Source: Planktothrix tepida PCC 9214
GTDB taxonomy: Bacteria > Cyanobacteriota > Cyanobacteriia > Cyanobacteriales > Microcoleaceae
Length of the DNA: 62,121 nt
Direction: 5' to 3'
Assembly: GCF_900009145.1 (NCBI RefSeq)
Contig: NZ_LN889817.1
Location: forward strand, 82,403 to 144,523
Below, piece by piece: positions 21,951 through 35,468 of the stretch. The notes under the pieces were generated by a model. That model saw only the letters and a program-made list of their open reading frames with translations, had not been told where the DNA came from and did not search any database. Each line of letters opens with the position of its first letter. Within the stretch, counting starts at the first letter, position 1. The position numbers and the translations under genes were made by a program.

Positions 21951-22022
21951 GGGCGGTTAACTCAGCGGTAGAGTGCTTCCCTTACAAGGAAGAGGCCACA
22001 AGTTCGAATCTTGTACCGCCCA
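21951..22022 (+). tRNA. tRNA-Val (anticodon TAC)
   Basis: 72-nt tRNA with a complete cloverleaf. The acceptor arms GGGCGGT and ACCGCCC pair, with discriminator A. The D-loop contains AGCGGTA. The anticodon stem CTTCC/GGAAG holds the loop CTTACAA with anticodon TAC, reading GUA valine codons. The T-arm is ACAAG-TTCGAAT-CTTGT. CCA is not encoded. Immediately downstream is a degenerate inverted copy of the same tRNA. Confidence 0.97.
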
Positions 22023-33885: not shown

Positions 33886-34269
33886 ATGAAAGTTCCTGTT
33901 GAAATTACTTATCGAGATGTGGAAAAGACCGATTATCTGGATGAGCTAATCAACAAAAAAGTGGCTAAGTTAGAGCGATATTGTAATTATATGAGTAGTT
34001 GCCGAGTTGTAGTTGAAAAAATCCATGATCGTCCTAAAAGTGGTTCTCCCTATCGAGTTCGTTTAGATATTACTGTACCCCCAGGACATGAGTTAGCTGC
34101 TTCTGAGAACCCTCAAGAAGGAGTTCAATATGAATCGTTAAAAGCTGTGATTCGAGATGTGTTTGAAGCCGCACGTCGTCAATTAGTGGAATTAGTTCAA
34201 CGTCAACGGGATGAAGTCAAAACCCATACGGCTGAGGAAGTTGATTCTTATTCTGTACCCCAAATTTAG
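33886..34269 (+). CDS. Short HPF/RaiA-type ribosome-associated protein
   Basis: Ribosome-hibernation-factor fold (HPF/RaiA/YfiA), which binds the 30S decoding region when growth stops. The 127 residues cover only the N-terminal domain: VPVEITYRDVEKTDYLDELI, KKVAKLERYCNYMSSCRVVV, then YRVRLDITVPPGHEL and an AIRDVFEAARRQL helix. The long cyanobacterial LrtA has an additional dimerisation domain that is missing here. The Lys/Arg pattern on the last helix is weaker than in HPF, so a variant role is possible. It starts at ATG 33886 after TAGGAG. Confidence 0.82.
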   Translation: MKVPVEITYRDVEKTDYLDELINKKVAKLERYCNYMSSCRVVVEKIHDRPKSGSPYRVRLDITVPPGHELAASENPQEGVQYESLKAVIRDVFEAARRQLVELVQRQRDEVKTHTAEEVDSYSVPQI

Positions 34270-34391: not shown

Positions 34392-35468
34392 TTACAAGAG
34401 TAAGATTAGTGTGACTCCTCCGGCTAAGATAACGATATTTGTAGCCAAGAACAATTGATCAAGCTTTTTGACTCGGAGAATGGATTCAGGATGTTCGCTT
34501 TTTGCCCAATCTGCCGTAATAATGGTTTCTAAAATTCCTGCAATAATCAAAACGTAAACTAAAGCATAGATTTTATCTACTAAAACCAAATAGCCTACGT
34601 CGGGTAAAGCATCGGAATAGGATTGTTGTAGAAAAACAATCGTTAATAAAGCGGTAACGGGAAGAATAATCCGAGAATCAACATAGATAGGATAGAGTAA
34701 TAAGGAACCCCAACTGGAGAATAAAACGACAAATAACGGAAGTAATAATTTCCAGGTAAAGAAACTTAAGGGACGGGAAATGTTCATTTCAAACCGCACG
34801 GTCGAATAAATCCAGTTATTTTTTCCTTCGTCTAAATCCCCAAAATTAGAGGGATATTGATGGAATAAGGTTTTAATCTCAGAATTTCTAATTTTCCACC
34901 CAGGAACTGTTAAATCCGCAGCATAGCCAGATTCTTTTGTATCCGCTATATAGACTAATTCAGTTAAGGGATAAACGGCATTTTCAATCGTGACGCCTAA
35001 ACGTTGTTCATCCAGGGGATAGCGGGAAAATTCAAACGGTTCTCGAAACCGACTTTCGACCCGCATAATTTGATAGAAACTGCCATCTTTGAGTTTTTTC
35101 GGTTCTTCATAGGCGGGTTCGATAATTCTTCCCCAGTCTTCAACACCGTTCATAAATTCTAAATTAGTAACGGGGTCAATTTTGCCTTTCCAACGTAACC
35201 ATAAATAGAAATCCAAGTAATAGGTATTACTGGACGCATTCAGTTCATAAATATTTTGAGCATAAACTCCAACGGTAACTTTTTGGGCTGTGGCGGGAAT
35301 TTCAGTGAGCGGTTGATAAATCGGTGAATTTTTTTCAGGGGTTGGAGTGCGAAAACTGTTCCCAAACTGTAAACTTAAAATTAGGATCAAAATACCCAAG
35401 GCAGGGATCACAAGTTTACGACTATTTTTTTTCAGGTTAATCCAATCGGATAATCGGGATAAGGACAT
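34392..35468 (-). CDS. Pentameric ligand-gated ion channel homologue (GLIC-like)
   Basis: Predicted cation or anion channel of the prokaryotic Cys-loop-receptor family, whose known members include the proton-gated GLIC of Gloeobacter. An N-terminal hydrophobic segment (about 18-36) is a signal or anchor. The extracellular beta-sandwich spans about 62-232, with YYLDFYLWLRW, then FEFSRYPLDEQRLGVTIENA at 145-164, the counterpart of the Cys-loop neighbourhood but without cysteines. Four helices follow: M1 233-259, pore-lining M2 264-285 (RIILPVTALLTIVFLQQSYS), M3 290-318 and M4 337-358. The M3-M4 loop is short, as in prokaryotic members. The whole protein contains no cysteine. The ligand and ion selectivity are unknown. 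Confidence 0.87.
   Translation of the reverse strand: MSLSRLSDWINLKKNSRKLVIPALGILILILSLQFGNSFRTPTPEKNSPIYQPLTEIPATAQKVTVGVYAQNIYELNASSNTYYLDFYLWLRWKGKIDPVTNLEFMNGVEDWGRIIEPAYEEPKKLKDGSFYQIMRVESRFREPFEFSRYPLDEQRLGVTIENAVYPLTELVYIADTKESGYAADLTVPGWKIRNSEIKTLFHQYPSNFGDLDEGKNNWIYSTVRFEMNISRPLSFFTWKLLLPLFVVLFSSWGSLLLYPIYVDSRIILPVTALLTIVFLQQSYSDALPDVGYLVLVDKIYALVYVLIIAGILETIITADWAKSEHPESILRVKKLDQLFLATNIVILAGGVTLILLL

Follow-up and report, generated by a model that had tools for sequence, protein, structure and literature searches.

Bacterial channels of the family and the Planktothrix protein

Among the described bacterial pentameric ligand-gated ion channels (pLGICs), ELIC is the amine-gated Erwinia/Dickeya ligand-gated ion channel, and GLIC is the proton-gated channel of Gloeobacter violaceus. 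Cyanobacteria, including Synechococcus and Prochlorococcus, are named as pLGIC carriers in the parts compared of Tasneem and others (2004) and Jaiteh and others (2016) (PMC549065, PMC4795631). According to the part of the latter report consulted (PMC4795631, 2016), no pLGIC from a unicellular organism has a known biological role.

The window, i.e., the whole stretch of 62,121 nucleotides analysed here from Planktothrix tepida PCC 9214, encodes, in an intact gene, a bacterial relative of the ion channels that serve nerves as receptors (Table 1). The source genome measures 6.78 Mb and the contig is C61. A sequence-only reading of this DNA had assigned the product to the pLGIC family, and the sequence matches, a profile, the predicted fold and structural lists all bear this out. 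Sequence searches of the kind proposed with that reading gave the following: phmmer matches known pLGICs with E-values of 1e-12 to 1e-16 and a profile comparison gives 2.1e-53, but the curated detection thresholds of Pfam (13.3 of 26 and 11.3 of 28.1 bits) and of NCBIfam (51.5 of 280.2 and 36.7 of 500 bits) are not reached. The monomer is predicted to fold as a β-sandwich ectodomain followed by a four-helix membrane domain, as in pLGICs. Two structural-similarity lists return only pLGICs among the best matches listed (50 + 50); another fold for the ectodomain was rejected on this ground, and the outcome named in advance as refuting, an ectodomain from another beta-rich family, did not appear.

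Table 1. Position within the window of the pLGIC subunit gene and of the parts of its product.
Feature	Position	Strand	Basis or detail
pLGIC subunit gene	34392..35468	-	358 codons + stop; ATG start
N-terminal helix, residues 3-38 (signal peptide or uncleaved anchor)	35355..35462	-	hydropathy peak 19-37; low-confidence predicted helix
β-sandwich ectodomain, about residues 58-233	34770..35297	-	predicted fold and structural matches
Pro-loop motif YPLD, residues 150-153	35010..35021	-	P151 in 91/91 relatives
E104, aligned with ELIC Glu77	35157..35159	-	alignment
E162, aligned with ELIC Glu131	34983..34985	-	alignment
M1 helix, residues 234-257, with P244	34698..34769	-	sequence and structure model
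M2 pore helix, residues 263-287	34608..34682	-	alignment and structure model
M3 helix, residues 296-324	34497..34583	-	structure model
M4 helix, residues 327-357	34398..34490	-	structure model

The marks of the superfamily are present: the [F/Y]PxD Pro loop as Y150-P-L-D153, the pre-M1 Arg and M1 Pro as R232 and P244, and the basic 0' and Leu 9' of M2 as R266 and L275. Three further traits read from the sequence hold: the conserved ectodomain-loop proline is kept, in the window protein as in 91/91 relatives; the Cys pair is absent, the 358 residues containing no cysteine at all; and the M3-M4 loop is short, M3 ending at residue 324 and M4 beginning at 327 in the structure model. Metazoan Cys-loop receptors (GluCl, GABA-A and glycine receptors) are only 17-20% identical to the window protein, which lacks their loop disulfide cysteines; the large M3-M4 domain of the metazoan receptors is missing as well. 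With ELIC, it has in common the fold, the size, the absence of loop cysteines, and R0', T6', L9' and P23' in M2; in contrast, P4', F13', Q15' and Q16' stand where ELIC has Ser, Ala, Ala and Phe. The hWxP segment of ELIC and of GLIC is missing.

Hydropathy reveals one hydrophobic stretch at the N-terminus and others from residue 232 onward. A classical signal-peptide site of A-x-A-like type ends the N-terminus in G055 (ALAQA) and its congener G433 (ASAQA). No such N-terminal site was found in the Planktothrix copies, in which the N-terminus may be an uncleaved anchor.

Kinship and a distinctive pore helix

The window protein belongs to a clade of 12 rows (SH-aLRT 99) comprising six sequences from the genus, those of genomes G055, G433, G179, G638 and G529, and one from an uncultured cyanobacterium (L035). 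The window protein shares 60% identity with the sequence of G055, 51% with that of G179 and 63% with that of L035; a further relative, in G159, is 48% identical and interrupted by a stop. GLIC and ELIC are located in a separate branch of 18 rows (99). The window protein is of the same family as GLIC and ELIC, as the earlier reading had it, but falls outside their branch. Orthology with GLIC was rejected, GLIC lying in another supported branch and the window protein having no hWxP segment. The neighbours of GLIC are four cyanobacterial sequences (L015, L022, L109, L119) that group with it and are up to 40% identical to it.

Searched with the window profile, 48/386 genomes of the phylum, 85/388 of the order and 62/201 of the family of G361 contain some pLGIC match. 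The window type itself is rare: long copies, one of them interrupted, occur in 13/388 genomes of the order, besides the broken copies of G006 and G008. A scan of 84,980 species genomes with ectodomain patterns yielded seven confirmed loci, five cyanobacterial, one from Anaerolineae and one from Parabeggiatoa, and a single scan of viral contigs with ectodomain-only patterns found no relative.

M2 aligns gap-free with its counterparts in GLIC and ELIC from -2' to 23', and it coincides by sequence and by predicted monomer fold with the pore helix of solved pLGICs, an indirect check on the other outcome named in advance as refuting, an M2 that lines no pore. Its positions are D264 (-2'), R266 (0'), P270 (4'), T272 (6') and L275 (9'), then F279 (13'), Q281 (15') and Q282 (16'). 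Pro is found at 4' in 41/91 rows, Gln-Gln at 15'-16' in 36/91, and both in 35/91. In the resulting Pro4'/Gln-Gln set of 41 rows, from which one periplasmic-binding-protein fusion was removed by hand, the conserved positions are D/E-2' (39 rows), R0' (39), P4' (40), T6' (36), L9' (41), F13' (37), Q15' (40), Q16' (36) and Y18' (37). On a tree of 84 rows from which the M2 columns had been left out, 2 changes suffice for the 37 rows belonging to the set, against a shuffled mean of 27.6; taken singly, Pro4' requires 4 and Gln-Gln 5. A tree constrained to keep the set in one group is not rejected (p-AU 0.493). All these trees were built by quick methods and contain several long branches; the set is compatible with one clade, which does not amount to proof of a single origin.

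On these sequence comparisons, the window protein belongs to a subfamily of cyanobacterial channels whose pore is distinctive. The Pro4'/Gln-Gln signature is not described in the parts compared of the accounts of cyanobacterial pLGICs by Tasneem (2004) and Jaiteh (2016). No laboratory study of the subfamily was found in the literature searched, the pore signature itself not being among the queries, and a search on Planktothrix and ligand-gated ion channels returned nothing related by title. The Pro4'/Gln15'/Gln16' pore offers natural variation useful for studies of conduction and structure.

Candidate ligand site and proposed mechanism

According to the part of PMC3119659 consulted, which numbers the aromatic residues of the site Tyr174 and Phe187, ELIC binds its amine close to Glu77 and Glu131, and replacing either of them with alanine abolishes the response. 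In the present alignment with ELIC, Glu77, Glu131 and Tyr38 are kept as E104, E162 and Y88, while Phe19 corresponds to Y69 and Phe188 to Y221. ELIC Tyr175 aligns with H203, and Y205 is found two residues further on. Other places of the pocket are not kept, Phe133, Asn103 and Arg91 being replaced by A164, I134 and E122. Within the window-type clade, E104, E162, Y88 and Y205 are invariant (12/12 rows), and an aromatic residue occupies position 69 in 11/11 filled rows and position 221 in 11/12. Outside it, Glu is present at the Glu77 place in 28/79 rows and at the Glu131 place in 53/79, and an acid at 104 together with Glu at 162 in 21/79; neither residue is specific to the clade, nor is the pair. 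In the model, E104 belongs to strand 103-105 and E162 ends strand 154-163, Y221 is in strand 220-231 and Y205 just past strand 191-204. These modelled positions of E104, E162, Y205 and Y221 are as an ELIC-type site demands.

The ligand had been called unknown. The matter is not wholly open, as the two amine-holding glutamates of ELIC are kept. Given this retention, a primary amine would be the ligand to test first, and a short list of agonists worth trying follows from it. That the ligand is an amine can be put forward tentatively from the alignment. The same channel might instead respond to protons, alkali, Ca2+ or carboxylates, an equally tentative reading that draws on the partial conservation of the ELIC pocket and on two precedents for non-amine gating in the literature consulted in part, GLIC, which is activated by protons, and DeCLIC, which opens upon calcium depletion. 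sTeLIC is a further channel with gating of this non-amine kind. On the other side, Arg and Ile stand in GLIC where the window protein has E104 and E162, and the two proteins belong to different branches. Furthermore, the divalent site of ELIC comprises D113, D158 and E150, at whose places the window protein has P144, P189 and G181.

The best explanation of the whole is likely a homopentameric pLGIC with a small periplasmic ligand, a hydrophobic gate and probable cation conduction. The gene product would be one subunit of a homopentamer in the cytoplasmic membrane, with the ectodomain facing the periplasm. There a small molecule, quite possibly a primary amine, would bind between subunits at E104, E162, Y69, Y88, Y205 and Y221, and the signal would reach the M2 helices via the Pro loop (D153) and the pre-M1 R232, between which the Asp-Arg coupling bridge is kept. 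By analogy with GLIC, ELIC and animal receptors, the L9' and F13' rings of M2 may form the hydrophobic gate. Upon opening, ions would pass, and the ring of acidic D-2' residues at the cytoplasmic end of the pore would favour cations. Cation selectivity is thereby probable, with the proviso that, according to the part of PMC4795631 consulted, pre-M2 residues are in general no predictor of selectivity in prokaryotes. An anion-selective channel, for which Arg at 0', a small residue (Ser) at -1' and the absence of the cation-channel Glu-1' could be invoked, is unlikely given the acidic D-2', a position held by D or E in 39/41 rows of the set, like E-2' of GLIC.

The source genome contains a second, very different pLGIC (L002, 1399-2406, G000:C26), and the window protein might work only as a heteromer with it. 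The two genes, however, are on different contigs, their products are 28% identical, and G009 has the window type with no second pLGIC match; obligate heteromery is very improbable. More broadly, and quite tentatively, the window protein may be one branch of a separate cyanobacterial class: amine-sensing pLGICs with Pro4' and a double Gln ring near the outer mouth, conducting and gating unlike GLIC and ELIC, and occurring also in many picocyanobacteria, nearly all of those sampled lacking one or both halves of the Asp-Arg bridge.

Constraint, neighbourhood and unusual relatives

A full copy of the gene is present in 7/10 genomes of the genus including the source, the six others being 85-97% identical. 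Six Planktothrix orthologues compared in 15 pairs display a mean dN/dS of 0.116, with 0.086 for residues 58-236, 0.028 for residues 237-322 and about 0.21 for each end. The window gene is under purifying selection, which supports a functional channel as its likely product. Breakage does occur: an internal deletion in G008 leaves only about residues 1-68 and 253-353, what survives in G006 spans roughly residues 13-74 and is interrupted by stops, and the search of G004 (73% complete) recovered pLGIC sequence of a different type only. The first two cases could point to a gene in decay that yields no functional product, but this reading is hardly credible in view of the seven intact copies and of the low dN/dS, above all in the pore region. 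Closely related Planktothrix species thus differ naturally in whether their copy is intact or broken, so that a role can be sought by comparing them.

On the side of lower coordinates, 3' of the window gene, lies a gene of ribosome-hibernation type (33886-34269); at higher coordinates, rpsP, a KH-domain gene and phoH are divergent from it. The latter side is the same at the gene or its remnant in 8/8 genomes of the genus compared (own, G001, G002, G003, G005, G006, G007 and G008; G004 and G009 were left out), and this position is inherited. At seven loci outside the genus (G055, G179, G159, G041, G312, G090 and G065), no window gene besides the channel was found adjoining; a functional neighbour was rejected on this basis, in agreement with the earlier remark that the gene has no obvious partner. 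An ABC-2 permease gene lies directly downstream (<=15 bases) of the orthologue in G055 (L088, 7224-11251) and G433 (L103, 1459-3327). The G055 orthologue is moreover preceded by genes for an ABC ATPase and a second permease, so that the channel lies inside an ABC cluster. The permease is not called a partner because only two genomes of one genus are concerned. A promoter and terminator scan gave fewer sites than shuffled sequences and is uninformative, and the RNA families within the window amount to one tRNA (21951-22022).

Several relatives depart from the usual plan. In L002 and L028, glycine stands in place of the proline of M1 and also of the one that follows M2; L002 matches no Pfam model at E 0.01, and sequences of this type form a supported branch of 14 rows. 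Two pLGIC genes lie close together on the same strand at L023 (G040:C92), L076 (G237:C57) and L069 (G359:C47), and possibly encode heteromers. The Pro-loop Asp and the pre-M1 Arg form a conserved salt bridge of the superfamily. Both are lost in 24/91 rows, both kept in 64 and one kept in 3, the losses falling mostly in family f36 (L044-L074) and also in L018 and L046. As the Arg was lost once on the tree, about one loss event is indicated, not repeated coevolution.

Fusions were also observed. In a metagenome assembly of Candidatus Parabeggiatoa sp. HSG14 (JAUCGK010000421.1), a single open frame of 1034 codons (L037, 2020-5121, + strand) encodes a periplasmic-binding-protein domain (Peripla_BP_6, 64-387) and then a complete pLGIC ectodomain (472-658), which scores 145 bits against a profile built from 11 fused pLGIC ectodomains. 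The place of the pLGIC pore is taken by a mechanosensitive channel domain of MscS type (824-889, E 1.4e-17). A receptor head of Cys-loop type on an MscS pore would, if true, be striking, this being one locus in a metagenome assembly; no paper on such a combination was found in the literature searched. Frames of about 1190-1225 residues in G039 (L086, 57-3731) and G164 (L078, 404-3967) carry an N-terminal Peripla_BP_6 domain, a central pLGIC and, after M4, a second solute-binding protein (SBP_bac_1), and a frame of similar length at L078 4054-7608 perhaps shares this architecture. Finally, in G043 (L025, 1372-3306, - strand), a dCache-like sensor domain precedes a pLGIC ectodomain, and the open frame stops in the M2 region.
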